Shown: positions 31,229 to 44,814 of the stretch, one piece after another | Layout: each line of letters begins with the position of its first letter | Position numbering within the stretch: position 1 is the first letter of the stretch | From: Salinimicrobium sediminis | GTDB taxonomy: Bacteria > Bacteroidota > Bacteroidia > Flavobacteriales > Flavobacteriaceae | Assembly (NCBI RefSeq): GCF_900215295.1 | Contig: NZ_OCMF01000001.1 | Span: forward strand, 620,001 to 684,000 | Length of the DNA: 64,000 nt | Reading direction: 5' to 3' | The notes under the pieces: model-generated | The model's input: the letters and a program-made list of their open reading frames with translations, nothing else | What the model was told of the DNA's origin: nothing | Database searches by the model: none | Program-made: the position numbers and the translations under genes

Positions 31229-32107
31229 TCAGGAGATATGATTTTTCCTGTTTGTTCTCTTAACAGCCTGCCTGTTTTTATAATCTATCCAGTCCTGGCC
31301 TTTCCATTTTCTCATAGCGTTATCAAAATGGCGCATAAAAAAAAGGTTGTAGAGTGCTTTACTCAGGTTGGGCAAGTGTCGAGGTGCTGCCCTAAGGCTC
31401 ATCGAGAAGCCGGGAGTGAGGTAAGTCATTTGATGCCAGTAACCTTCTGGCATATAGAGTGTCTCCCCATGATTAAGTTCGGCAACATAGCCACTGGCAT
31501 TCTTAAGGGCCGGGAATTTTTCATAGTCCGGATGTGAAAAGTCTATATCCTCCCGGGAAATAAGAGCGTGCGGCACCTTGTACAGATACTTCGTTTCTGA
31601 AGGCGGAAAAATGATACAGCGCTTTTTTCCGTGGAAATGAAAATGAAGGATATTGGCAAAATCGATATCATAGTGCATAAACACTTTTGATCCCTCACCT
31701 CCAAAGAACAGCATTGGGATCTGTTTCAGCAGGCGCAGACCTATATCGGGATAACTGAAGTCCTTTTGCAATGCAGGTACTTCTTTTAAAAGATGGTAAA
31801 GAAAAATGCGGTAAGAAGTTGGCCCTTTCTTTATAAGATCAATATAATTCCGCATCTTCATGTACTTATGCGGCTCATTGAATTTGTACTTCGAGGAGAT
31901 CTTTTCATTGCTGTCAAACAACGGCACCGTCTTTTCTCCCGCTTTTTCCTGAATATATTCAAGTGACCATTTCTCATATGCCGGCCAGTCTTCTATGAGA
32001 TGGTCAATGACCACCGGCTTTTGCGGCTTTACATACTGCTCAAAAAAATCCTCTTTTGAGATCCTCTCAATCCTGGGAACATCAGTTAATTGAAATCCTG
32101 CATTCAT
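31229..32107 (-). CDS. JmjC/cupin-8 domain oxygenase-like protein
   Basis: 292 residues, a cupin_8 (JmjC-like) protein. The iron ligands are visible as H-Y-D in FMHYDIDFANIL (about residue 150) and a distal histidine in EGYWHQMTYL (about 229), with the 2-oxoglutarate-binding lysine probably in HGKKRCIIFPP. N-terminal VPRIERISKEDFFEQYVKPQKPVVI is the usual cupin_8 opening. Relatives hydroxylate proteins; the target is unknown. It follows bioB after a 48-base gap on the same strand, but a metabolic link is not evident. Confidence 0.85.
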   Translation of the reverse strand: MNAGFQLTDVPRIERISKEDFFEQYVKPQKPVVIDHLIEDWPAYEKWSLEYIQEKAGEKTVPLFDSNEKISSKYKFNEPHKYMKMRNYIDLIKKGPTSYRIFLYHLLKEVPALQKDFSYPDIGLRLLKQIPMLFFGGEGSKVFMHYDIDFANILHFHFHGKKRCIIFPPSETKYLYKVPHALISREDIDFSHPDYEKFPALKNASGYVAELNHGETLYMPEGYWHQMTYLTPGFSMSLRAAPRHLPNLSKALYNLFFMRHFDNAMRKWKGQDWIDYKNRQAVKRTNRKNHIS

Positions 32108-32155
32108 CACTCATCTGCTTTTAATCAATTTCCGGTGCTACTTTTGCCGATTTGC

Positions 32156-33244
32156 TCAGCTTTTTGCCCGGGCTTTCTGCGCCTCCAGGTTTCTTTCGAT
32201 CACATGTCCCGGGCGTGACCATTTAGGCTTCTCTCCTAAATTCTGAAATTTAGAATCTTCTGCGGCCACGGTTTCAGGTTGTGACTTTTTCACGAATGGC
32301 TTCTGCGGATTTAATCCCAAAGCCCTGAACATCTCCATATCTTCATTTACATCGGGATTTGGAGTGGTTAGGAGTTTATCTCCTGCAAAAATGGAGTTAG
32401 CTCCAGCAAAGAAACACATCGCCTGTCCTTCCCTGCTCATTTGCGTTCTCCCTGCAGAAAGTCTTACCTGGGTCTCGGGCATAACAATTCGGGTAGTAGC
32501 TACCATTCTCACCATTTCCCAGATCGATACCTGCTCCTGATCTGCCAGTGGAGTGCCTTCTACCGGCACCAATGCATTAATGGGCACAGATTCCGGCTGT
32601 GGGTTTAATCTTGACAGCGCCACTAACATTCCCGCGCGGTCTTCTATGGTCTCTCCCATTCCAATGATTCCACCGCTGCAAACGGTAACATTGGTTTTTC
32701 GAACGTTGTCAATGGTCTTCAGGCGGTCTTCAAAACCACGGGTGGAGATCACTTCTTTGTAGTATTCTTCCGAAGAATCAAGGTTGTGATTATAAGCATA
32801 TAATCCGGCTTCGGCTAAGCGCTGAGCCTGATTTTCAGTAAGCATTCCAAGGGTGCAGCATACTTCCATCTCCAATTTGTTGATCGTACGAACCATTTCC
32901 AGCACCTCATCGAATTCCTGTCCGTCCTTCACATTTCTCCAGGCAGCACCCATACACACTCTGGAGCTGCCTGCTTCTTTAGCGCGTAAAGCCTGGGCTT
33001 TCACCTGATTCACGCTCATCAGATCATTACCTTCCAGGTTGGTGTGGTATCGGGCAGCTTGAGGGCAGTACCCACAATCTTCGGGACAACCCCCGGTTTT
33101 AATGGACAATAAGGTCGAAACCTGAACAGTATTTGGGTCGTGATTTTCCCTGTGAACAGTCGCCGCTTCATAAAGCAGTTCCATAAAAGGTTTGTTGTAG
33201 ATCTCCAGGATCTCTTCTTTCGTCCAGTCGTGTCTTATTGCCAT
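32156..33244 (-). CDS. bioB: Biotin synthase
   Basis: 362 residues. Radical-SAM cysteines C53, C57, C60 in GGCPEDCGYCPQ; later YNHNLDSS and the C-terminal LSAGRTQMSREGQAMCFFAGANSIF. It inserts sulfur in dethiobiotin. The frame is open upstream to 33322, overlapping the synthase gene, but ATG 33244 matches the family start. Last gene of the biotin locus. Confidence 0.97.
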   Translation of the reverse strand: MAIRHDWTKEEILEIYNKPFMELLYEAATVHRENHDPNTVQVSTLLSIKTGGCPEDCGYCPQAARYHTNLEGNDLMSVNQVKAQALRAKEAGSSRVCMGAAWRNVKDGQEFDEVLEMVRTINKLEMEVCCTLGMLTENQAQRLAEAGLYAYNHNLDSSEEYYKEVISTRGFEDRLKTIDNVRKTNVTVCSGGIIGMGETIEDRAGMLVALSRLNPQPESVPINALVPVEGTPLADQEQVSIWEMVRMVATTRIVMPETQVRLSAGRTQMSREGQAMCFFAGANSIFAGDKLLTTPNPDVNEDMEMFRALGLNPQKPFVKKSQPETVAAEDSKFQNLGEKPKWSRPGHVIERNLEAQKARAKS

Positions 33245-33305
33245 TGAAAAATGTTTAGATTCAAAAATAATAAAATGTAGGTGTTTATTAGCCTCAATTA
33301 GGTTT

Positions 33306-34457
33306 TTATAAAGAACGCTCAATTAAAATACTCACTGCATTACCTCCAAACCCCACAGCATTGATCAGGATCTTCTCCAGTTTCTGCGGAAGTTTCTCTT
33401 CGGAAAGAAAAGGGACAGGAATAAATATTTGCTGCTGAAGCATTAATACTGCCAGTTCAAGACTTAAGGTGCCCGAAGCTCCAAAAGTGTGACCTACCTT
33501 CCATTTGTTGGTAGTTAGCGCCGGAAGTTCCTCTCCAAAAATGGCTTTTACAGCTGCCATTTCTGAAAGGTCTCCCTTTACAGTTCCGGGAGCATGCATC
33601 ACCACCACATCAACTTCTTCCGGAGAAATATTACCCAATGCCATTCTCATTGCCTGCTGAAAGGCATTTCCGGAAGCCGAAATAGATGCAGGATGATCCA
33701 GCTCCTCAGTCGCATAACCAATCCCGATGATTTGCGCCAGCGCATCCCTTCTTTCTCCTGCCTCCAAACATACAACCGCAGCTCCCTCCCCTAAAACCAT
33801 CGAATTTTGCCTTTTTTGAAGATCAAGTGCCCTGCAGGGATACGGTCTTTCCTTTGAAGCAATTACTTTCATAGCTGCCATCTGTGCCATTGTAAAAGGC
33901 GTGAGAGCCGCCTCGCTACCACCCGATATAAATTTCTTAGCCATGCCGGCAGAGAGCCAGGCAATCCCGTTTATTACCGCATGCAACGCCGTAGAACAGG
34001 TAACCGAATGTGAAATTTCTGGACCCCTGCTCTTGAGATCCTGCGCCACCCAGGAGGAAATATTTCCAAGAGTAGTATTGGGAGATGATAAGGTTTGTGC
34101 TTTTCCGGTTTTGAGATACTCGGTGAAATGCTCCTCAAACAAAGTAGTCGCACCCCTTGAACTTCCTATGTTGATGCCTATATCCTCTCCTCTTTCCCAT
34201 CCTGCTCTCTCCATTGCCAATCTGGTAGCATATATCGCGTACAATACCGAATCATCTACTTTCCTGAATTGAGATCTCAGGTTATTGATCTCAGTTTTTA
34301 TTTCCTGCGGAAGAAATCCTGCCCAGGCAGAAACCTTCCCAAAATCGCTTTTTTGAAGCAGGTGTGAGTTCTGCAAATATCTGCTCCATATCTCAGAATG
34401 ATTTGAGCCCAATGCAGAAACTGAGCCTATGGAAATAATAGAAACCGAAGTTTTCAA
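33306..34457 (-). CDS. FabF-like beta-ketoacyl synthase in the biotin locus
   Basis: 383 residues, thiolase fold. The Cys-His-His triad is complete: C154 in SVTCSTALHA, H288 in MHAPGTVKGD, H323 in KWKVGHTFGASG, so it should be an active condensing enzyme (FabB/FabF class, not FabH). It is shorter than housekeeping FabF (about 415) and stands between the SET-domain gene and bioB, not beside acpP. This suggests a dedicated role in making the pimeloyl chain, which is an inference. Confidence 0.92.
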   Translation of the reverse strand: MKTSVSIISIGSVSALGSNHSEIWSRYLQNSHLLQKSDFGKVSAWAGFLPQEIKTEINNLRSQFRKVDDSVLYAIYATRLAMERAGWERGEDIGINIGSSRGATTLFEEHFTEYLKTGKAQTLSSPNTTLGNISSWVAQDLKSRGPEISHSVTCSTALHAVINGIAWLSAGMAKKFISGGSEAALTPFTMAQMAAMKVIASKERPYPCRALDLQKRQNSMVLGEGAAVVCLEAGERRDALAQIIGIGYATEELDHPASISASGNAFQQAMRMALGNISPEEVDVVVMHAPGTVKGDLSEMAAVKAIFGEELPALTTNKWKVGHTFGASGTLSLELAVLMLQQQIFIPVPFLSEEKLPQKLEKILINAVGFGGNAVSILIERSL

Positions 34458-34514
34458 AAGTGGAAGTTTGCGGCAAAAATAAGGGCTGGAACTTAAATAC
34501 GAACAGGGTTTCTG

Positions 34515-35102
34515 TTATTTTTCGTGATAGTACAGATTAAGAATGGAATCCAGAGGTTCGTTTTTCTCCAGCTGCCCGGTGATCTTACTTATGATTTCTT
34601 TGGGCACCAGTTTGATAAGAGGTTGTTCTACCTTCTGAAAATCCTTAAAAGCATCATTTAACTGCCGGTCCCATTTTTCATGATATTTCAGCAGGTCATC
34701 GGGGTAAACAGTATCTCTTCCGGTGCCTTCATCTATAGCTTTAAAGGGTTCTGAAATGTTGAGATAGCCGTAATCGTCTGTAAGTTGTTCCCCGGGTTGA
34801 ATATCCCTTACCGCCAGTTCAAAATCATGAGCTGAGGAAAGGCAATTCGCATTGAAACTGTGATTCACATATTTTGCCTGGTCCCAACATAGCACTAGAT
34901 GCCCCTTATTGTTCCTGAAACAATATTTGTCTACCTGTTCCTGAACCTTTGGGTGCATTTTCTCCACCTCCTCTGCATGGATCACTCTGTCAAGCGCATC
35001 CTGCACCCAGGTAATGGTGCCTTTAGGGATAAATTTTTTTGCAACTACTCCGTAGCCTACCACTTCATTAATAAATTGAACCTCTGTATCGGGATGCATC
35101 AT
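34515..35102 (-). CDS. SET-domain protein in the biotin locus
   Basis: 195 residues. A SET fold is supported by GYGVVAKKFIPKGTI (residues 16-30), KYVNHSFNANC (78-87; the N-H-S knot and cysteine), and GEQLTDDYGYL (104-114; the catalytic tyrosine Y111 or Y113). SET enzymes methylate lysines using SAM. It is located 66 bases after bioA and 57 before the FabF-like gene on the same strand. No substrate is known; the absence of bioC nearby makes a link to biotin chemistry worth testing. Confidence 0.85.
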   Translation of the reverse strand: MMHPDTEVQFINEVVGYGVVAKKFIPKGTITWVQDALDRVIHAEEVEKMHPKVQEQVDKYCFRNNKGHLVLCWDQAKYVNHSFNANCLSSAHDFELAVRDIQPGEQLTDDYGYLNISEPFKAIDEGTGRDTVYPDDLLKYHEKWDRQLNDAFKDFQKVEQPLIKLVPKEIISKITGQLEKNEPLDSILNLYYHEK

Positions 35103-35168
35103 ATCTTAGAGAATTTCTTCTAAAATAGGTAAATGACGCTCTCCTTTTTTGCAAAAAAAAGTTAAGGC

Positions 35169-36449
35169 TTAAAATTTTTCCAAAGCCTTCTCAATACTGG
35201 TGTATATCTTCTGAAGCTGATCATCACTGGTAATATAGGGAGCTGAAATGTAGATGGTATTCCCCAAAGGCCTCAAAAATACGCCCTCCTTCATAAAATG
35301 GGCAAAGAGCCTGTTCCGCAGATTGCCGTAACGCTCCATTTCCACATCCAGCTCAAAGGCGAGGATCACTCCCAGCTGCCGCATATTTTTCACTTTAGGA
35401 TGCCGTTTTAGTTGCCCGGCAAAAATTTGATGAGAGGCAATGTTTCTTTCAATATGCCCTTGCATTTCTGCCGATGTCAGCAGTTCAATCCCCGCAAGAG
35501 CTGCAGTACAGGCAAGCGGATTAGCGGTATAGGTATGGCCGTGAAAAAGGCCTTTTGAGAGCTCTTCGGAATAAAAAGCATCATAGATCTTCCTGCTACA
35601 GGAAGTGACCGCCATTGGCAGGAGTCCGGCGGTGAGGGCTTTGGACATACAGATGATATCAGGCTGCACCTCAAGAAATTCTGAAGCGAAATTCTTTCCG
35701 GTTTTGCCGAAGCCGGTCATCACCTCATCGGCGATAGTGATGATGTGATTTTCCCTGCACAGCTTCAGGAGATCATTAAGACCTTCGGCATTATACATTT
35801 TCATTCCTGCGGCGCCCTGCACCATAGGTTCAAAAATGAAACCGGCAATTTGGTGTTCAGCAATAAGATTCCGGAGCTTCAGTAGAACATCAGCATTATT
35901 TTCTCCGGCAGGAATGGGCAGGCGCAGCACCTTCAAAAAATGATCTTCAAAAGCCCCGTTATAAACAGATAATCCTGAAACTGACATAGCACCAAAAGTG
36001 TCTCCATGAAAACCTTCTTCAAAAGCCAGCAGGACCTTACGGTCATTCCCCAAATTGTGATGGTACTGTAGGGCCATTTTTATTCCGACTTCGGTCGCGG
36101 TGGAGCCGTTATCACTAAAAAAAAGTTTTTCCTGGTTAGAAGGCAGGATCTGTATCAATGCTTCTGAAAGTGCAATTGCAGGTTCATGTGTAAATCCGCT
36201 GAATACCACCTGGTCCAGCTGTTGCATTTGGGCTGCAACTTTCGAGGTAATGAATTCGTTACAATGTCCATAAACCGCAGTATACCAACTGGATATTCCA
36301 TCAACGTATTCTTTCCCGGACTCATCGTATAACAAAGCACCTTTTGCTCTAACTATCGCCAACATGTCTCCTGCAAGTTTGTGCTGGGTCAAAGGATGCC
36401 ACAGGTGTTTTCTATCCCTCTGCGAAAGGGTCTGGGTCTCAGTCTTCAT
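35169..36449 (-). CDS. bioA: Adenosylmethionine-8-amino-7-oxononanoate aminotransferase
   Basis: 426 residues, class III PLP aminotransferase. HLWHPLTQHK at the start and YDESGKEYVDGISSWYTAVYGH are BioA-specific; the PLP aspartate is in IIIADEVMTGFGKTG-like ITIADEVMTGFGKTG, and the Schiff-base lysine in MSKALTAGLLPMAV. Converts KAPA to DAPA with SAM as amino donor. Overlaps bioD by 11 bases. Confidence 0.97.
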   Translation of the reverse strand: MKTETQTLSQRDRKHLWHPLTQHKLAGDMLAIVRAKGALLYDESGKEYVDGISSWYTAVYGHCNEFITSKVAAQMQQLDQVVFSGFTHEPAIALSEALIQILPSNQEKLFFSDNGSTATEVGIKMALQYHHNLGNDRKVLLAFEEGFHGDTFGAMSVSGLSVYNGAFEDHFLKVLRLPIPAGENNADVLLKLRNLIAEHQIAGFIFEPMVQGAAGMKMYNAEGLNDLLKLCRENHIITIADEVMTGFGKTGKNFASEFLEVQPDIICMSKALTAGLLPMAVTSCSRKIYDAFYSEELSKGLFHGHTYTANPLACTAALAGIELLTSAEMQGHIERNIASHQIFAGQLKRHPKVKNMRQLGVILAFELDVEMERYGNLRNRLFAHFMKEGVFLRPLGNTIYISAPYITSDDQLQKIYTSIEKALEKF

Positions 36450-37068
36450 TTTCGGTTAATTTATTTCTGAATTTTTCAGCGTATTCTAAAATGACATTTC
36501 TGTCAAAATAAGGTTCCTGATCAATCCTTCCGAGTATTTCTACCCCTGACATTTCAGCAATGATCTTTTCTGAGGAAGGATGCTCCTCTCCGCTAAAAAT
36601 GATTCCGAAGCAATTGAGATCTCTGGCTCTTAGCGCTTCAATAGTCAGGAGCGTATGATTGATGCTGCCCAGGTAATGCCTTGACACCAGGATCACCCGG
36701 TGATCACGTTGAATAAGATCGGCAATGGTTTCTACTTCGTTCAAAGGGACCAGCAATCCGCCGGCGCCTTCGATGACAAGATGATTTTTGGTTCCAGGTT
36801 CCTCAATTTCTGAAACCCTGATCTTTACATTGTCGATCACAGCCGCAGCATGAGGGCTCATAGGCGTTTTTAGCGCATAGGCATTTTCGTGAAAGACTGT
36901 CTTTTTATTCGAAATAAGGCTTTTGATCTTGTGAGTATCGGATTTTTCCAGGTCGCCCGCCTGTATTGGTTTCCAGTAATCTGCTTCTAGAGCTTCGGTC
37001 ACAATAGCAGCGGCAATGGTTTTACCAACTTCGGTCCCTATGCCGGTGATAAAGTATTTAAGGTTCAT
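36439..37068 (-). CDS. bioD: Dethiobiotin synthetase
   Basis: 209 residues. P-loop GTEVGKT (11-17), YWKPIQAGD near 31, and IEGAGGLLVPL near 101 are the BioD motifs. It closes the ureido ring of DAPA with CO2 and ATP. Overlaps both neighbours by 11 bases. Confidence 0.97.
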   Translation of the reverse strand: MNLKYFITGIGTEVGKTIAAAIVTEALEADYWKPIQAGDLEKSDTHKIKSLISNKKTVFHENAYALKTPMSPHAAAVIDNVKIRVSEIEEPGTKNHLVIEGAGGLLVPLNEVETIADLIQRDHRVILVSRHYLGSINHTLLTIEALRARDLNCFGIIFSGEEHPSSEKIIAEMSGVEILGRIDQEPYFDRNVILEYAEKFRNKLTENED

Positions 37069-37477
37069 CGTGTTTAAATTTATTGTTACAATTCGCGCAT
37101 TGGTATTCCCGGTTTACAACAATAGGCAACGCATTCACTAAAAAAGAGATCCCAAAAAAGAATAAAGAGCCGGGGCTTTTGACATTGGTAAAAAGTTCGA
37201 CTTTATCGCTGTTACATTCGGGACAGATGATCTGTTCTCCTTCATCGTTCACAGAATATTTACTTATTGCATCCAATACCTGCCTCGCCTTTTCTTCATC
37301 TTCCTTTTTCACTTTCAGCTTCACTCCGCCGATAGCATTACTCACCAAAGGATCTGTATCTATGGTGTGATTGTCAACCAAAAAGGAGTTTATCCCTTCA
37401 GATTCCAGTCGGCCTTTAATAATCTGTGCTTCTGCCGAGTATTGAAATACGGCAACCGTGGAAAAAATTTGTTTCAT
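37058..37477 (-). CDS. DUF2007 protein with C-terminal zinc ribbon
   Basis: 139 residues: DUF2007 domain (1-70; STVAVFQYSAEAQIIKGRLESEGI; VKKEDEEKARQVLDAI) then a rubredoxin-like ribbon with cysteine pairs CPECNSDK and CANCNNKF (about 85-130) that brackets a hydrophobic segment (FFFGISFLVNALPIVV). It lies inside the bioF-bioD overlap chain (4 bases with bioF, 11 with bioD), so it is co-expressed with biotin genes. Its role there is unknown. Confidence 0.85.
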   Translation of the reverse strand: MKQIFSTVAVFQYSAEAQIIKGRLESEGINSFLVDNHTIDTDPLVSNAIGGVKLKVKKEDEEKARQVLDAISKYSVNDEGEQIICPECNSDKVELFTNVKSPGSLFFFGISFLVNALPIVVNREYQCANCNNKFKHDEP

Positions 37478-38613
37478 ATTAGCATTTTTAAAGCCTTAAA
37501 TAAATCCTCAATTTCTGTTTTGGAGTTGAAACTATGAAGGCAAATGCGCAACCTTTCCCTTCCTGCAGGTACGGTGGGAGAAAGAATAGGCCGCACATCA
37601 AACCCTGCAGCTGCCAAAGACTGTGAAGCTGCTTTTACCTCTTTATTCCCCGGAATTATAAAGCAATGTATTGCCGAGTCACTTTCCAAAAACTGCTCCC
37701 GGAATTCCTTTTTTGACACCTCAGCTTTGAAAAACCTGATATTTTCCCGGAGTTTTTCTATTTCAGAAATTCCTTCCCCCTTAAGGTTCTCGTATGCTGC
37801 GATGACAGCAGCCACCGAATGGGGGGCAAGGGCAGTGCTGTAGATGAAGCTTCGGGAAAAATTGATAAGATAGTCCCTTAAGTCCTTAGAACCTAACACA
37901 GCAGCCCCGTGTGTTCCCAATGCCTTGCCAAAAGTGACAATTCTGGCGAAGATCTTTTCCTGCAGTCCTTGTTCAGCAATTATTCCGGCTCTATAAATCC
38001 CTACAGCATGAGCTTCGTCAATGACCAGGTGAAAATTATTCTCTTCAGCATAAGTAGCAAGCAGCGTAAGGTTTGGTGAATCACCATCCATGGAAAAGAT
38101 AGATTCGGTGACAATATAAACCTCTCCGGAAATGCCATTTTTGAGCCTCCTTATCTTTTCCTGAAGATCTCCCACGTCATTATGCCTGAACTTTATAGCT
38201 TTAGCCGCACTAAGGCCAATGCCGTCACGAATGGACGCATGAATTAGTTCATCGTAAAAAATGTAATCCCCCCGGCCGGGTACTGCCGAAAAAAAGCCCA
38301 CATTGGCATCATAACCCGAATTGAAGATAAGTGCAGCTTCAGCTTTGTGATATGCTGCAATAAGATCTTCGCCCGGGGCAAACAATTGATGATTCCCTGT
38401 CAACAACCTGGAGCCTCCGGAGCCGTTCTTCAGCAGCGAATTTTGTTTAAGAATTTGATCGCTGCGTTCGAATATCCACTGATCTCCCGCGAAACCGAGA
38501 TAGTCATTTGAAGAGAAATCCAACAAGCCTTCAGAAGATTTTAATACTCTAAAGGCCCCACCGGCTTTTCTGTTCTCAAGGCTTTTACCTATTTTTATTG
38601 GTAACTTTGACAT
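37474..38613 (-). CDS. bioF: 8-amino-7-oxononanoate synthase
   Basis: 379 residues, alpha-oxoamine synthase. FSSNDYLGFAGD, the GSGGSRLLTGNHQ substrate loop, DEAHAVGIY and the PLP lysine in TFGKALGTHGAAVLGS are present. It condenses pimeloyl thioester with alanine. First gene of the minus-strand biotin transcript; only 23 bases separate it from the divergent mgtC-like gene. Confidence 0.96.
   Translation of the reverse strand: MSKLPIKIGKSLENRKAGGAFRVLKSSEGLLDFSSNDYLGFAGDQWIFERSDQILKQNSLLKNGSGGSRLLTGNHQLFAPGEDLIAAYHKAEAALIFNSGYDANVGFFSAVPGRGDYIFYDELIHASIRDGIGLSAAKAIKFRHNDVGDLQEKIRRLKNGISGEVYIVTESIFSMDGDSPNLTLLATYAEENNFHLVIDEAHAVGIYRAGIIAEQGLQEKIFARIVTFGKALGTHGAAVLGSKDLRDYLINFSRSFIYSTALAPHSVAAVIAAYENLKGEGISEIEKLRENIRFFKAEVSKKEFREQFLESDSAIHCFIIPGNKEVKAASQSLAAAGFDVRPILSPTVPAGRERLRICLHSFNSKTEIEDLFKALKMLI
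38602..38609 (+). promoter_or_regulatory. Promoter -7 box of the MgtC-like gene, inside bioF
   Basis: TAACTTTG, exact TAnnTTTG, lies within the first codons of divergent bioF, 28 bases before the mgtC-like ATG. Confidence 0.45.
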
Positions 38614-38636
38614 CGAAGGCTAAATTAAGAATATAA

Positions 38637-39086
38637 ATGGAGCTACTGGAATTCGGGTTTAGAATTGGCGCGGCCTTACTTGCCGGACTTTTTATTGGTA
38701 TGGAGCGTGAAATCCATAATAAAAATGCAGGTCTTAAGACCAATGCCCTGGTTTCCCTGGGGGCCGCTGTATTCGTTCTTACTTCCCTGGCATTTGAAGG
38801 AGAAAAATATGTAGACACTACCAGGGTGATTGGACAGGTGGTAACCGGAATTGGATTTCTTGGCGCAGGAGTTATTCTTCATAAAGGCACCATTGTAAGA
38901 GGTCTTACTACAGCAGCTACCGTATGGTGTAGTGCCGGCGCCGGCTGTCTTGCGGCAATAGGCCAATACAAAGAACTTTTTCTTTTAGTAGCGATAATTG
39001 TATTCGTAAATGTGGTTTTTAACCCGGTGGACCGGTTTATAGCCAGACTTTTTGGCCACGATAAAGAAGATAAGATCGATGATTAA
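38637..39086 (+). CDS. MgtC/SapB family membrane protein
   Basis: 149 residues with four to five membrane helices and the MgtC block FRIGAALLAGLFIGMEREIHNKNAGLKTNALVSLGAA, plus GQVVTGIGFLGAGVILH. Salmonella MgtC inhibits the F1Fo ATPase and supports growth at low magnesium; this protein lacks MgtC's long cytosolic tail, so it belongs to the shorter SapB/YhiD branch with uncertain function. Its end overlaps mrpG by 4 bases, convergent. Confidence 0.9.
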   Translation: MELLEFGFRIGAALLAGLFIGMEREIHNKNAGLKTNALVSLGAAVFVLTSLAFEGEKYVDTTRVIGQVVTGIGFLGAGVILHKGTIVRGLTTAATVWCSAGAGCLAAIGQYKELFLLVAIIVFVNVVFNPVDRFIARLFGHDKEDKIDD

Positions 39087-39469
39087 AGCTCGTCCCGGTG
39101 ATGATCCATATTGCGGGGAGAACTAATATTTTTTCCCGTTTTTCTGTACTTTCCTTCCAGGTCATCCATTAAAGTCTTTTCCCACATCTTAACTCCGGTA
39201 ATATAGGAAGCCTTCCCAATAAGATGAGCTCCTACAGGGGCAGTTAGCAGGATAAAGATTATTACTGCCAAAACCCTGGTGGTGGTGGAAAGATCGTTAA
39301 AATATACCGCCGCTGCGACCAGGATCAACCCTATTCCCAAAGTAGCTGCTTTTGTGGTCACTGCCATTCTAAGATAGGTATCGGGCATACGCAGAATACC
39401 CACTCCGGCAAGCAGCACAAACAGGGTACCGAGGGTGGCTATTATACCTATAATTGTATCTGTCATCAT
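39083..39469 (-). CDS. mrpG: Na+/H+ antiporter subunit G
   Basis: 128 residues, three membrane helices. LLAGVGILRMPDTYLRMAVTTKAATLGIGLIL is the MrpG/MnhG signature. Last of seven subunits; ATGA overlap with mrpF. Confidence 0.94.
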   Translation of the reverse strand: MMTDTIIGIIATLGTLFVLLAGVGILRMPDTYLRMAVTTKAATLGIGLILVAAAVYFNDLSTTTRVLAVIIFILLTAPVGAHLIGKASYITGVKMWEKTLMDDLEGKYRKTGKNISSPRNMDHHRDEL

Positions 39470-39738
39470 CTGTTCTTTCTTTTCTGAATATAATATGAGT
39501 AAGCCACCGTTGCCAAAAAGCCGATCAGCGCCAGAATTAAAGCAATATCAAGAAAGGTGGGTTGATGGGTAAGGATGCTGTAAATGGCAATAATTCCTAT
39601 TCCTATCGTCACCAGCAAATCAACTGCAATCACCCGGTCTGAGATGGACGGACCTCTAAAAAACCTAAGGAATACCAACAGTATTGACAGCGATAGCACC
39701 GGCAGAATGATATAATATAAATAGTTATCTAAGGTCAT
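39466..39738 (-). CDS. mrpF: Na+/H+ antiporter subunit F
   Basis: 90 residues, three helices. RFFRGPSISDRVIAVDLLVTIGIGIIAIYS is the MrpF core. Four-base overlaps with both neighbours. Confidence 0.94.
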   Translation of the reverse strand: MTLDNYLYYIILPVLSLSILLVFLRFFRGPSISDRVIAVDLLVTIGIGIIAIYSILTHQPTFLDIALILALIGFLATVAYSYYIQKRKNR

Positions 39739-40211
39739 GAAGATATCTCTAAAATGCGTTTTTCGAATCCGTTCTTTATATCCCTTATAAAATCTTCTTT
39801 GTTGGTGATGTACATGGAGTAAACGTACAGCACTTTTTTATCTTCAGAAACATCTAAACTCAGGGTTCCCGGAGTTAGCGTGATCATGTTGGCCAACATG
39901 GTGATCTGCCCGTCTGAGGTCACATCTAAAGGCACTCCAACAATTCCGGGCGTCATGTGATATTTTGGAGTTCCCACCTCCCATGCTACCTGCACATTGG
40001 CTTTTATCAATTGGTACAGAAAATAGAAAAAGAAGGAGATCAACTTGGGGACCAGTTTAAAATATCTTGCTTTGGAAGCTCCCCTGGTGATCACGAACAG
40101 CAGGAAGTAACTCAGGATAAATCCAAAGAGGATATTGGCAAAGGTGAAGCCTCCTGTAAGGGCGACCCAGATAAAGGTAAGCAGTAAATTTGCCAAAAAT
40201 CTGTTTTTCAT
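39735..40211 (-). CDS. mrpE: Na+/H+ antiporter subunit E
   Basis: 158 residues. N-terminal helices with the FTFANILFGFILSYFLLF segment and a C-terminal soluble part, MITLTPGTLSLDV...YVYSMYI, as in MrpE. Six bases after mrpD. Confidence 0.93.
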   Translation of the reverse strand: MKNRFLANLLLTFIWVALTGGFTFANILFGFILSYFLLFVITRGASKARYFKLVPKLISFFFYFLYQLIKANVQVAWEVGTPKYHMTPGIVGVPLDVTSDGQITMLANMITLTPGTLSLDVSEDKKVLYVYSMYITNKEDFIRDIKNGFEKRILEISS

Positions 40212-40217
40212 CTCCTT

Positions 40218-41726
40218 TTATTTTCGAAGCACTGCGTTAATATATTCCTGATTATCCATAAGCTCAAAAGCAATTCTTTCTGAAAGCGCCTGGATATTCT
40301 CTGCTCCAAATCCTAAGTAAAGACTCACGATGGACAAAAATATGATTGGAGCCATCATCTGAGTTTTCTTCATCTTTGTAAGCTTCTTAAAATACGGAAA
40401 ATTCCGGGTTTCGGGTAATTTTTCACCTGTCTTCCAGAACACTTCCCCCCATAGTTTAACGATCACAAATAAGGTAACAAAGCTGGCGAAAATAATTCCG
40501 CCAATGACCATATAATTTTCTGTGGTCCATCCTGCACTAATCAGAGATAGCTTTGGCCAAAATCCCGAGAGTGGCGGAATTCCCACCAGTGAGAATAACG
40601 GAATGGCAAATAATAAGCTCATTTTTGGATAATCTGCATAGAAATCTCCCAGTTTTTTGATGTTATGGTTCGCCTTTATTTTATAAATCACCCCGCTCAT
40701 CATAAACAGGTTTGTTTTTACTGTGATATCGTGAATCAAATAGAATACCGCCCCGGCTATTGCAATTTCGGTCATCATTCCCAATCCGGCGATCATGTAT
40801 CCAATATGGCAGATCACCAGGTAGGAAAATATTTTTCGGATATTCTTCTGAACTATAGCCCCCACAGCCCCACTAAATAATGTTAGCACCGCCACAGCGA
40901 GCAGAACGTTCTCCAGGAAGGGATCAACATCGAAGATCAGGGTAAAAACCCTCATTAGCGCGTATACTCCCACCTTGGTAAGAAGTCCTCCAAAAATTGC
41001 CGATACTGCGGAAGGAGGTGTGTGATAAGAGGCCGGCAACCAGAAGTACAACGGAAACACTGCAGATTTAATTCCGAAGCCCACCAGGAATAACAGAGCA
41101 TTCACCTGCACAAGCGTTCGGTTTTCGACAGCAGCCACTTTTGCTGCCAGGTCGGCCATATTCAGGCTTCCGGTTAGACCGTATAAAACTGCTATTGCAG
41201 TAAGGAAAATGATCGAAGCAAGAATATTTAGCGTAAAATATTTCACTGCCCCCTCCAGCTGTGCCTTTTCACCACCAATGGTTAATAGTACGAAAGAGGT
41301 GATAATAATGATCTCAAACCAAACATAGAGGTTAAAGATATCCCCTGTTAAAAAAGCTCCATTTAGTCCCAGCAGGAGAAAATGAAAAATGGGGAAAAAT
41401 CCGAATTTCAGACGGGCAGGAATAACCGATCCTGCTGAAAAGCTGGAAACTGCAACCCCGGCAATAGCGGTTAGCAGGACCATGGTAGCTGCAAAGGTAT
41501 CGGCGACAAAAGTAATTCCAAAAGGAGGTTGCCAATTTCCTGCCTGTACAGTATGTGATCCATGTTGCCATACAGAAGAGAAAAGCCATACAGCAATTCC
41601 CAGGTTTAAAATGCTCCCTACTATGCTAATGGTCCTTTGCCAGCTAATTTTGCTCCATACAAACATGAGCACAATGGCCAGAAGCATTTGAACAATAAGG
41701 GGATAAATGACTAGCTGTGGCATCAT
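40218..41726 (-). CDS. mrpD: Na+/H+ antiporter subunit D
   Basis: 502 residues, about 14 helices, homologous to complex I antiporter-like subunits (NuoM/N). Conserved charged sites are in [17 protein letters not shown] (transmembrane glutamate) and [38 protein letters not shown] (transmembrane lysines). With MrpA it carries the ion channels of the complex. Confidence 0.96.
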
Positions 41727-42076
41727 GAGTATTCGTCTGTTGCGTTCATTTCATCGAGATCGTCTGTCTTTACAACCTTATGTGCCCTTTTCACAAGCAC
41801 TATTGCAAAAGATTGTAGACCAAAACTTATCACGATGGCGGTTAATATAAGTGCCTGCGGAAGCGGATCTGAATAAGCGTCCAAAAAGACTTTGGAATCT
41901 TCGGGAATTATCGGGGGCGCTCCTTTGGCGATGCGACCCAATAAAAATATGAGCAGGTTAGCACCATTACCAAGCAGGATGATCCCAATGATCAATTTTA
42001 CAAGGCTACGCCGCAGGATCATGTAGATGCCCGATGCATATAAAGTACCTATGATTATGGCTAATAATATCTCCAT
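41723..42076 (-). CDS. mrpC: Na+/H+ antiporter subunit C
   Basis: 117 residues, NuoK-like: [19 protein letters not shown] and [25 protein letters not shown] with the conserved transmembrane acidic/proline region. Overlaps mrpD by 4 bases. Confidence 0.95.
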
Positions 42077-42078
42077 TT

Positions 42079-42492
42079 TTAAGTGGATTCAGAAATGGTG
42101 AAAATAATAGTCAGGGTCACCCCCTGTACTACCAGATAAACTCCGATGTCAAAAAATAAGGCCGAGCCAAGGTTTCCCACTATGGGTAGATGCTCCGGAT
42201 ACCACAGTCCCGTCATGAAAGGCTCCCCGGTAAAAATTAGCGGTGAAACCCCGCTAAGAAAAGAGAGCGCCAGGCCAGTCGGCATCAAAAATCCCGGGTG
42301 AAAATGCAATAATTTTCGGGTGTCACCAAGGCCATTGGCAAAAGCATGCAATACGAATGCTATGGAAGCTATTAAACCACCCACAAATCCTCCTCCCGGT
42401 AAATAATGTCCGCGCAAAAGAATGAACACCGAAAATATCAATAGCAACGGCAACATATAATTAGAAGCGGTACGTAGTATTATTGTTTTCAT
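42079..42492 (-). CDS. mrpB: Na+/H+ antiporter subunit B
   Basis: 137 residues, four helices; [26 protein letters not shown] is the MrpB signature. Three bases after mrpA. Confidence 0.95.
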
Positions 42493-42495
42493 CCT

Positions 42496-44814
42496 TTAAT
42501 CTTTTAATTCCCTGTCATCTCTTCTTAACCTCAATTTCAGCAAGCTGAAAACCCCAATTGCGGCAATGGTCAATACCGAAATTTCCATTAAGGTATCAAC
42601 CCCCCTGAAGTCTACCAGGATCACATTAACTACGTTCTTCCCTTTTGCCAGGACATAGGCATTTTCTGCATAGAAATCACTCACCTCTTTGTTTACAGGT
42701 TCTCCAAGAACTTCAAGAGCGATAAAAGTGATCAATACTCCAAATGAAATTGAAAGTATTCCATCTACAGCTTTCATCCTGTAATCTGAAATTGATAAAT
42801 ATTTCGGCAGACTTGATAACACCAGTACAAAAAGGATCACAGTAAGTGTATCAATTGAAAATTGGGTCATAGCAAGGTCGGGCGCACTATAGATCACGAA
42901 CATTAAACAAATTGCATAACCCACTACTCCCATGGCAACAACCGCAGTCAATCTCGATCTCGCACCAACAACGAAAAGAATAGCCAGGAACATGATTCCC
43001 ATAATGATCATTTCATAGTAGGTCATCCTCGAAAAGGAGGACAGGTCAATAGGAATTTCATTCTGGTCGGCAAAAAGGGAATACCCAACCAGGACCACAA
43101 GGAATAATATAATAGTGGATACATAATTGCGTAAAAAGCCATTTTGAAAGATCCTTGTCCACCAATTAGAAAAAGCTTTAAAGCCATGACCAAAGTTGGT
43201 AATAAGAGTAAGAGGCGCAATAAAATCCAGTCTGGCTATACCCCTTTCTTTCTTTGCTGAAGGCTTAAAGACTGCATATAACAGGATCCCTGTGGCAAGA
43301 GTGATGGCACTAAGGCCCAGGACAAGGTTAAATCCATGCCACAACTTGAGATGCACTGCACTGCCCTCCATCCCTACGGCATTTACAACCGGGGCAATAA
43401 TACTGTCATTGATGATCCCGGGAAATATTCCCACTATGATTCCCAGCAAAGCCAGGATCACAGGCGGTATCCACATAAGTATACCGGGAAGATGTACTTT
43501 TTTGAAATCATTGGGAAGGGGGCCGGTGAAAGGTTTTATTCCAGCCACAAATCCCGCATAGAGCACCAAAATATTTGTTGCAATGGCGAGTACGGTTAAG
43601 AAAACAGCCCAATTTCCCATCTCAAGGGTAGATTCGTATACCAGGTCTTTTCCTATAAAGCCAACAAAGGGAGGCATTCCGGCGCTGGAAAGAGCAGCTA
43701 AAAGTCCGGCAACTGCTACCGGCATCATCACCTTGCGAAGACCGGAGAGCCGGGTGACATCTCTTGTACCTGTTTCATGATCTATAATCCCGGTGATAAG
43801 GAATAAAGTCGCCTTATAAAGCGCATGGACCACAATATAGACCGCAGCAGCCGTTAAGGCATATTGGGTTCCTAAACCTATTAGGAAGACGAGCAATCCC
43901 AGGACCGAAATTGTTGAGTACGCAAGTACTCCCTTAAGGTCTGTTCGAAACAAAGTGTGAACCGCTGCATAGAACATGGTGATCCCCCCCACCGTAATCA
44001 AAGTTGTATTCCAGATATCTTCTCCCCCCAGCACAGGTGTAAACCTTAAAAGCAGGTAAATACCTGCCTTGACCATTGTGGCAGAATGTAGGTAAGTAGA
44101 CACCGGCGTGGGTGCTTTCATCGCACCCGGAAGCCAGAAGTGGAAAGGAAATTGTGCCGATTTTGTGAACGCAGCTCCAAAAAGGAGGATAACGATCCAG
44201 ATGTAATAATCACTCGAAATAATATTAGAACTAAGCCCTACCATTTCGCTTATGTCATACGATCCTGCAACATTACCTAAAAGCAGTGCCCCGGCAAGCA
44301 AAAGGAATCCACCCGACCCGGTAATGGCAAGTGCCAAAACAGCAGATTTTCGCGAGGCCTCACTGGTATTATTGAAACCAATAAGAAAGAAGGAACTTAT
44401 ACTGGTAAGTTCCCAAAAAATGAACATGGAGAGCAAATTATCGCTCAGCACAAGGCCCAGCATAGCCCCCATGAACATCCCCAGATATCCGTAGAACCTG
44501 TCAAGGTAGTCGTGATTTTTAAGATATTCGGCCGTATAGGCGAAGACTAAAAACCCTATACCTGTGATTAATAAGGAAAACAGCAAAGACAGCCCGTCAA
44601 GTGAGAAATTGAGGTCCAGGCCGAGAGAAGGCACCCAGGCAATTTCCTGCCTTATCACTTCTCCTGCTGCTACCTGTGGAAGAAAAGAGAGGAAATAAAC
44701 AAATAGGGCTAAAGGAACCAGAGCAGAAAGTACCGCAAGTTTTCCCTTTAAAAATTTCCCGGCAAAAACCAGGAAAATAGAAAAGACAAAACCTGAAAGT
44801 ATGGCTGTTAGCAT
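42496..44814 (-). CDS. mrpA: Na+/H+ antiporter subunit A
   Basis: 772 residues, about 20 helices. NuoL-like domain (about 1-500) with KSAQFPFHFWLPGAMKAPTPVSTYLHSATMVKAGIYLL holding the ion-path lysines and histidines; then DUF4040/MrpB-N-like helices (about 590-770) ending in VDFRGVDTLMEISVLTIAAIGVF. It heads a complete mrpABCDEFG operon giving Na+(K+)/H+ exchange, useful in saline or alkaline habitats. Confidence 0.96.
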   Translation of the reverse strand: MLTAILSGFVFSIFLVFAGKFLKGKLAVLSALVPLALFVYFLSFLPQVAAGEVIRQEIAWVPSLGLDLNFSLDGLSLLFSLLITGIGFLVFAYTAEYLKNHDYLDRFYGYLGMFMGAMLGLVLSDNLLSMFIFWELTSISSFFLIGFNNTSEASRKSAVLALAITGSGGFLLLAGALLLGNVAGSYDISEMVGLSSNIISSDYYIWIVILLFGAAFTKSAQFPFHFWLPGAMKAPTPVSTYLHSATMVKAGIYLLLRFTPVLGGEDIWNTTLITVGGITMFYAAVHTLFRTDLKGVLAYSTISVLGLLVFLIGLGTQYALTAAAVYIVVHALYKATLFLITGIIDHETGTRDVTRLSGLRKVMMPVAVAGLLAALSSAGMPPFVGFIGKDLVYESTLEMGNWAVFLTVLAIATNILVLYAGFVAGIKPFTGPLPNDFKKVHLPGILMWIPPVILALLGIIVGIFPGIINDSIIAPVVNAVGMEGSAVHLKLWHGFNLVLGLSAITLATGILLYAVFKPSAKKERGIARLDFIAPLTLITNFGHGFKAFSNWWTRIFQNGFLRNYVSTIILFLVVLVGYSLFADQNEIPIDLSSFSRMTYYEMIIMGIMFLAILFVVGARSRLTAVVAMGVVGYAICLMFVIYSAPDLAMTQFSIDTLTVILFVLVLSSLPKYLSISDYRMKAVDGILSISFGVLITFIALEVLGEPVNKEVSDFYAENAYVLAKGKNVVNVILVDFRGVDTLMEISVLTIAAIGVFSLLKLRLRRDDRELKD

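Follow-up and report, generated by a model that had tools for sequence, protein, structure and literature searches.

We analysed a window of 64,000 nucleotides of Salinimicrobium sediminis (contig NZ_OCMF01000001.1, positions 620,001 to 684,000), which comes from a genome of 3.48 Mb (8 contigs, 99.99% complete). The window contains a biotin locus in which seven genes were confirmed in one run on the minus strand: bioF, a gene for a DUF2007 protein, bioD, bioA, a gene for a SET-domain protein, a gene for a FabF-like beta-ketoacyl-acyl carrier protein (ACP) synthase (hereafter KAS) and bioB. An earlier note on this DNA had read the run in the same way and had thought of Flavobacteriaceae, which is the right family; all seven genes were recovered at its positions, on the minus strand; the zinc ribbon that it attached to the DUF2007 protein is a weak match (20 bits, under the cut-off of 34.4). 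The main subject of this analysis is KAS, which very probably serves the supply of pimelate in biotin synthesis. The features of the locus are the following (positions in the window):

37474-38613, minus strand: bioF, 7-keto-8-aminopelargonate (KAPA) synthase, the expected user of the pimeloyl thioester (best family TIGR00858, 321 bits, under the cut-off of 426)
37058-37477, minus strand: DUF2007 protein, bystander (PF09413, 31.4 bits, Pfam cut-off 25.7)
36439-37068, minus strand: bioD, dethiobiotin synthase (TIGR00347, 119.7 bits, cut-off 83.3)
35169-36449, minus strand: bioA, 7,8-diaminopelargonate (DAPA) aminotransferase (TIGR00508, 532 bits, cut-off 405)
34515-35102, minus strand: SET-domain protein, almost certainly a bystander outside biotin synthesis and probably a protein methyltransferase (PF00856, 45 bits, Pfam cut-off 22.4)
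33306-34457, minus strand: FabF-like KAS, proposed dedicated pimeloyl-forming ketosynthase (PF00109, PF02801)
32156-33322, minus strand: bioB, biotin synthase (TIGR00433, 410 bits, cut-off 225)
31229-32110, minus strand: cupin_8 protein downstream of bioB, a flank outside the pathway (PF13621)

The DUF2007 gene overlaps bioF by 4 bases, bioD overlaps the DUF2007 gene by 11 bases and bioA overlaps bioD by 11 bases, while gaps of 66 and 57 bases separate bioA from the SET gene and the SET gene from KAS. The listed start of bioB is a TTG that gives an overlap with KAS; an ATG at 33244 (MAIRHDW) is the more plausible start and would leave 61 bases after KAS. The same order bioA, SET, KAS, bioB, cupin_8 and RecX was observed in Salinimicrobium sp. 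JAGXIM010000100.1 (17,219 bases).

The distribution of KAS was determined in 60 relatives, a sample that includes the genome of S. sediminis itself (numbers preceded by G designate genomes). KAS was detected in 33 of these genomes and bioB in 36; all the 33 KAS-containing relatives possess bioB, and none of the 24 relatives devoid of bioB contains KAS (Fisher p 8e-14, uncorrected for kinship). The 36 genomes with bioB are divided without overlap into 33 with KAS, two with a BioE-like gene (G040 and G053) and one with BioC and BioG (G014). Genome-wide, the 60 relatives contain two BioE-like genes, one BioC (searched with the G014 protein as query, E<=1e-12), one BioG and no BioW, and none of these was found in a genome with KAS. 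Among the 27 Flavobacteriaceae of the sample that have bioB, 26 have KAS and are devoid of BioC, BioG, BioW and BioE. In G014, BioG (PF04301, 146.8 bits) and BioC (TIGR02072, 204.1 bits) are over their cut-offs and localized between bioF and bioD. In G040 and G053, a gene encoding 207 residues lies next to bioF, with a MocR-type regulator divergent from it. No Pfam or NCBIfam model matched this protein, which displays the stretches EEHRH and EEEGH, looking like diiron ligands; the label BioE is ours and is based on the place in the bio cluster beside the MocR-type gene and on these two stretches. KAS is not linked to bioB in G033 and G038, yet both genomes possess bioB. In G033, it is found 120 kb from bioB and closely precedes another KAS, which is as long as FabF. 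In this stretch (L062, 8284-12771), KAS is followed by an open reading frame (ORF) of 78 residues, the FabF-length KAS and an ORF of 252 residues, which look like acpP, fabF and rnc; the Pfam check of these neighbours covered the FabF-length KAS.

A broader sample of the phylum, composed of 392 genomes that are each at least 90% complete, gave the same association: KAS is present in 34 genomes and bioB in 181, and all the 34 genomes with KAS are among those with bioB. The BioE-like gene was found in none of the 33 KAS-containing genomes tested versus 14 of the 37 tested that have bioB and lack KAS (four of these 14 also contributed rows to the query alignment, and a TAA occurs in three of the matches). 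Six KAS matches of the phylum sample come from outside the family, two of them from another class, and all six lie in or beside bio genes. In the two genomes of another class (L180-L181), KAS is 44-47% identical and belongs to a bio cluster; it could bear on the missing biotin step in Balneolaceae told in the extracts of PMC9909488. A scan of named genomes matched at least 588 stretches, of which 563 were confirmed. Counts were made in the best 80 of these 563 loci and are minimum values, since contig ends truncate some of the loci: bioA was found in 78, bioD in 74, bioF in 73 and bioB in 58. The occurrence of bioA in the same locus in 78 of 80 cases indicates that the linkage of KAS with bio genes is more than chance. 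The named loci include species of Zobellia, Kordia, Salegentibacter, Gillisia, Arenibacter and Flavobacterium. A search for KAS on plasmids, which covered 72,556 records, gave no hit at E<=1e-30.

A natural loss of the biotin genes was observed in three congeners (G003, G004 and G009), the locus of which lacks bioF, bioD, bioA, KAS and bioB and has retained the DUF2007 gene and the SET gene, the latter without internal stop. KAS and bioB are missing genome-wide in these congeners; bioF, bioA and bioD were checked at the locus. G003 and G009 share the order HU, Rng, RecX, cupin_8, SET, DUF2007 and mgtC, then the following genes: one flank of SET is devoid of bioB and KAS, the other of bioA and bioD, and bioF is gone beyond DUF2007. 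At this locus of the two genomes, tblastn at E<=1e-3 revealed no trace of the lost genes. In G004, a remnant of bioA (residues 354-426, 48%) persists between SET and DUF2007 (L208, 9285-9500) and is debris of the lost biotin cluster. KAS went together with the biotin genes, and SET and DUF2007 stayed. The DUF2007 protein was ruled out as a part of the pathway, as it is kept in these congeners; its gene is present in 45 of the 80 named loci.

Concerning the known pimelate genes, BioC gave 14 partial matches in S. sediminis, the best of 60.3 bits and all under the cut-off of 184.95. Among the first four of these methyltransferases, the first is UbiE and the third is ArsM (arsenite methyltransferase); for the second and the fourth (L003 and L005) the BioC model is the best NCBIfam match, a weak one of 60.3 and 52.7 bits, respectively. 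BioG (PF04301) had no match in this genome, and PF04301 was detected in one of the 60 genomes. BioW was absent from all 60, the host included, the control search being positive in B. subtilis. With the gene of G040 as query, a gene itself named from context, BioE was not detected in the host at E<=1e-5. The earlier note had seen neither bioC nor bioH in the window; in the whole genome, BioC (at its cut-off), BioG, BioW and BioE were not found, the search not extending to BioI, BioZ and the esterases BioH, BioK, BioJ and BioV. In the absence of BioC, there would be nothing for BioH or BioG to act on. The note had also expected a replacement for the missing genes within the cluster, rightly so, and the candidate is the FabF-like synthase, which is conserved with the bio genes where no other tested route is present.

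KAS is a protein of 383 residues. It reaches 158 bits with the FabF model TIGR03150, under the cut-off of 493.75, and shares 22-26% identity with FabF from E. coli and Pseudomonas. The AlphaFold model, obtained from 30 sequences, has a mean predicted local distance difference test (pLDDT) of 89.7 and a predicted template modelling (TM) score of 0.92, and the matches listed from the PDB (50 rows) are FabF and FabB, with TM scores to the query of 0.81-0.89. An alignment of 119 rows was examined (33 relatives, 80 named loci and 6 distant homologues, some genomes occurring twice). Cys154, His288, His323, Lys318 and Phe370 (in GFGG) are invariant, and the intact C-H-H triad attributed to this enzyme in the earlier note (Cys154/His288/His323) is conserved in 119 of the 119 rows. 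Arg101 is likewise conserved in all 119 rows, the most distant homologue having 31.9% identity; the motif GSSRGA was matched as text in 79 of the 80 named proteins and the aligned column is an arginine in all 80. This residue aligns with Ile109 of Listeria FabF, and flavobacterial FabF also has an isoleucine at this position. The multi-alignment further reveals the segment S125-P126-x-T128-T129-L130-G131-N132, invariant except for L130 (118/119) and N132 (117/119), where flavobacterial FabF has I-P-x-M-I-A-D-I, and Gln192 (118/119), where flavobacterial FabF has a glycine. To judge from FabF structures, the segment SPxTTLGN and Gln192 presumably line the acyl pocket; an otherwise hydrophobic pocket would then have been turned into a polar and positively charged one. 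Papers are cited here by PMC number and from extracts of their text. According to PMC5206705, Ile109 of Listeria FabF corresponds to Ile108 of E. coli and, with Phe400, apparently governs entry to the pocket; the change Ile108Phe lowers the elongation of long-chain acyl-ACPs. PMC7138838 likewise counts I108 among the residues that gate the acyl pocket.

We consider it probable that KAS forms pimelate by the condensation of a primer with a free carboxyl, with the help of Arg101; the substrate, the product, the primer and the role of this arginine are what we infer. Cys154 would be loaded with a short dicarboxylic primer, a malonyl- or glutaryl-thioester, the omega-carboxylate of which is left free. 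Arg101, predicted at the gate held by Ile108 in FabF, and the polar invariant segment nearby would neutralise this carboxylate, and a polar, charged pocket would indeed suit a short diacid primer with a carboxylate to be held. His288 and His323 would drive the decarboxylative condensation with malonyl-ACP, and the housekeeping FabG, FabZ and FabI would reduce the product. One cycle from a glutaryl primer, or two from a malonyl primer, would give pimeloyl-ACP for BioF. Such a route would work without a methyl mask and would thereby account for the missing BioC, and the SET protein would take no part in the pathway. A narrower form of this proposal can be put forward tentatively: malonyl-ACP would be both primer and extender, and KAS would make pimeloyl-ACP from three malonyl units in two cycles, without methyl mask, Arg101 and SPxTTLGN holding the carboxylate.

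The pimelate part of biotin synthesis differs between bacterial groups, with the systems BioC-BioH, BioI-BioW, BioZ and BioE (PMC12915131). BioZ, a KAS III present in Agrobacterium and Rhodothermus, condenses glutaryl-CoA (coenzyme A) with malonyl-ACP, and FabG, FabA and FabI finish the product (PMC7645780, PMC8024396). In E. coli, BioZ bypasses BioC-BioH. It resembles KAS as a dedicated ketosynthase in a bio cluster, by its free-carboxyl primer (predicted for KAS) and by an arginine, R147; S84, R147 and S287 close the primer tunnel of BioZ and are proposed to neutralise the carboxylate (PMC8024396). In contrast, BioZ is FabH-like with a Cys-His-Asn triad, whereas KAS is a FabF-like KAS I/II with Cys-His-His (triads from PMC7645780); the arginines occupy different places, and the primer of KAS is a proposal. 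The possibility that KAS is itself a BioZ was rejected, as it has Cys154/His288/His323 in place of the Cys-His-Asn of KAS III and matches the listed FabF and FabB. By analogy, KAS is likely a dedicated pimeloyl-forming ketosynthase, a counterpart of BioZ with the scaffold of KAS I/II. The kind is thus already known from BioZ; for the KAS I/II scaffold, and for a FabF-type pimelate enzyme in Bacteroidota, no description was found in the open-access literature (subscription papers were not covered). With FabF (KAS II), KAS shares the fold, the Cys-His-His-Lys residues and the GFGG gate; it differs by its arginine in place of Ile108, its polar SPxTTLGN, its length, its presence in bio clusters and its low identity as given above. 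The pathway of BioC with BioH, BioG, BioK, BioJ or BioV has in common with our proposal that pimeloyl-ACP is supplied to BioF via fatty acid synthesis, but the host has no BioC at the cut-off and KAS never occurs together with BioC/BioG among the 60 relatives. The BioE-BioL system is known from Elizabethkingia and Chlamydia, and in Elizabethkingia BioE is in the bio cluster beside the MocR-type BioL (PMC12915131). A BioE-like gene fills the slot of the bio cluster in G040 and G053, which lack KAS; unlike KAS, BioE belongs to the diiron oxygenases and cleaves long acyl chains (PMC12915131). Finally, the assembly of free-carboxyl pimeloyl-ACP from three malonates has been formulated as a hypothesis, and it was set aside in view of the hydrophobic active sites of fatty acid enzymes (PMC7645780); KAS would provide this hypothesis with a definite candidate.

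The earlier note had considered that the SET protein might serve pimelate synthesis by methylating a carboxyl or a carrier, with a bystander as the fallback. In such a route, SET would methylate malonyl-ACP or another carboxyl as a substitute for BioC, KAS would elongate the masked chain and an esterase would unmask it later. The protein does carry the NHS (YVNHSFN) and YGY (DDYGY) motifs ascribed to it, in addition to a SET domain over the Pfam cut-off, SET enzymes use S-adenosylmethionine, and the gene is flanked by bioA and KAS in the window and occurs in 11 of the 80 named loci. Its distribution argues against this role: SET was detected in 16 of the 60 relatives, 10 of the 33 with KAS and 6 of the 27 without, and the two genes are not associated (Fisher p 0.57). 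It is absent from 23 of the 33 relatives with KAS, it is on a different contig from KAS in G022, and the six relatives with SET and without KAS (G003, G004, G009, G030, G039 and G042) are all devoid of bioB. The conservation of SET, FabF-like synthase and bioB, suggested as a check in the note, thus held for the synthase, which follows the bio genes, and failed for SET. This distribution and the retention of an intact SET gene where the bio genes were lost lead us to reject it as pimelate methylase, a role that is scarcely conceivable; the three congeners support the fallback of the note.

KAS could also elongate or supply a fatty acyl chain that a further oxygenase, similar to BioI or BioE, cleaves to pimeloyl-ACP. 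BioE and BioI indeed act on long acyl chains (PMC12915131), and P450s were not among the genes searched for; however, BioE was not found in the KAS-containing genomes tested, no oxygenase was noticed by eye among the ORFs common to the clusters (no family search of these ORFs was made), and an arginine at the pocket gate would be ill-suited to a long acyl chain, so that this explanation is unlikely. We consider it quite unlikely that the KAS-containing genomes encode, in other places, a divergent BioC together with some unrelated esterase and that KAS is dedicated to condensing the methylated intermediates. The best NCBIfam match of L003 and L005 is the BioC model, but with scores far under its cut-off and partial coverage of the model, and the BioC of G014 has no match at its threshold in the other 59 genomes. 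In addition, E. coli handles a methyl-masked chain without any special KAS. KAS might instead act outside pimelate formation, for instance on chains for lipoate or membrane lipids, and merely travel with bio genes, which would agree with its place beside a FabF-length KAS, far from bioB, in G033. Such a role is nevertheless very unlikely, as KAS tracks bioB in 33/33 and 34/34 KAS-containing genomes, including the unlinked G033 and G038, and was lost along with bioB in the congeners.

Several points weigh against a pimelate-forming KAS with a free-carboxyl primer. Its activity is a prediction from sequence and context, the place of Arg101 at the gate of the acyl pocket comes from alignment, and in the monomer model the pLDDT of residues 125-131 falls below 50. 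Enzymes of the KAS I/II type generally take their primers from acyl-ACP. For a glutaryl primer, no intracellular glutaryl-ACP is known according to the extracts of PMC7645780, and these two facts slightly favour the malonyl primer. The BioZ variant R147A kept partial activity, whereas S84A and S287A did not (PMC8024396), so that a single arginine need not be decisive. BioZ is reported in Rhodothermus marinus (PMC7645780), and neither BioZ nor BioI was searched for in any genome. The search for BioE covered 37 of the 147 phylum genomes with bioB and without KAS, and that for BioC, BioG and BioW the 60 relatives. Seven Flavobacteriaceae of the phylum sample have bioB and lack KAS: G441 has BioE, and G083, G227, G262, G278, G370 and G447 have neither KAS nor BioE. 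These six were not searched for BioC or BioG; their bioB is found without bioF, bioA and bioD in the fetched 18 kb, and they may have partial pathways or genes elsewhere. In the seven (L186-L192), four bioB are 60-62% like that of the window and three are of an 84-85% type followed by cupin_8. Of 20 fetched regions with bioB and without KAS, two contain BioE, three BioC and BioG, and 15 none of the three, one of these 15 being that of G441, where BioE is on another contig.

Concerning the flanks of the cluster, bioB is followed by the cupin_8 gene and then by a SnoaL gene; the cupin_8 gene recurs in 50 of the 80 named loci and is retained in the congeners lacking bio genes. On the other side, the starts of bioF (minus strand) and mgtC (plus strand) are separated by 23 bases (window 38590-38700), and their promoters therefore overlap the opposite gene or sit elsewhere. 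A run of seven ORFs at 39083-44814 of the window adjoins the biotin cluster and is kept in congeners without bio genes; it looks like an Mrp Na+/H+ antiporter operon.

If KAS builds pimeloyl-ACP from three malonyl units, the known biotin routes would be joined by one that uses a KAS I/II scaffold and is widespread in the order of S. sediminis but patchy elsewhere in the phylum; the three-malonate hypothesis would be revived, a free carboxyl then fitting a fatty acid enzyme. As a pimelate-forming enzyme, KAS would show how a fatty-acid condensing enzyme is retuned for a charged diacid. One ketosynthase would fill the pimelate gap in 26 of the 27 bioB-containing Flavobacteriaceae among the 60 relatives, and biotin-capable flavobacteria could be annotated as complete.

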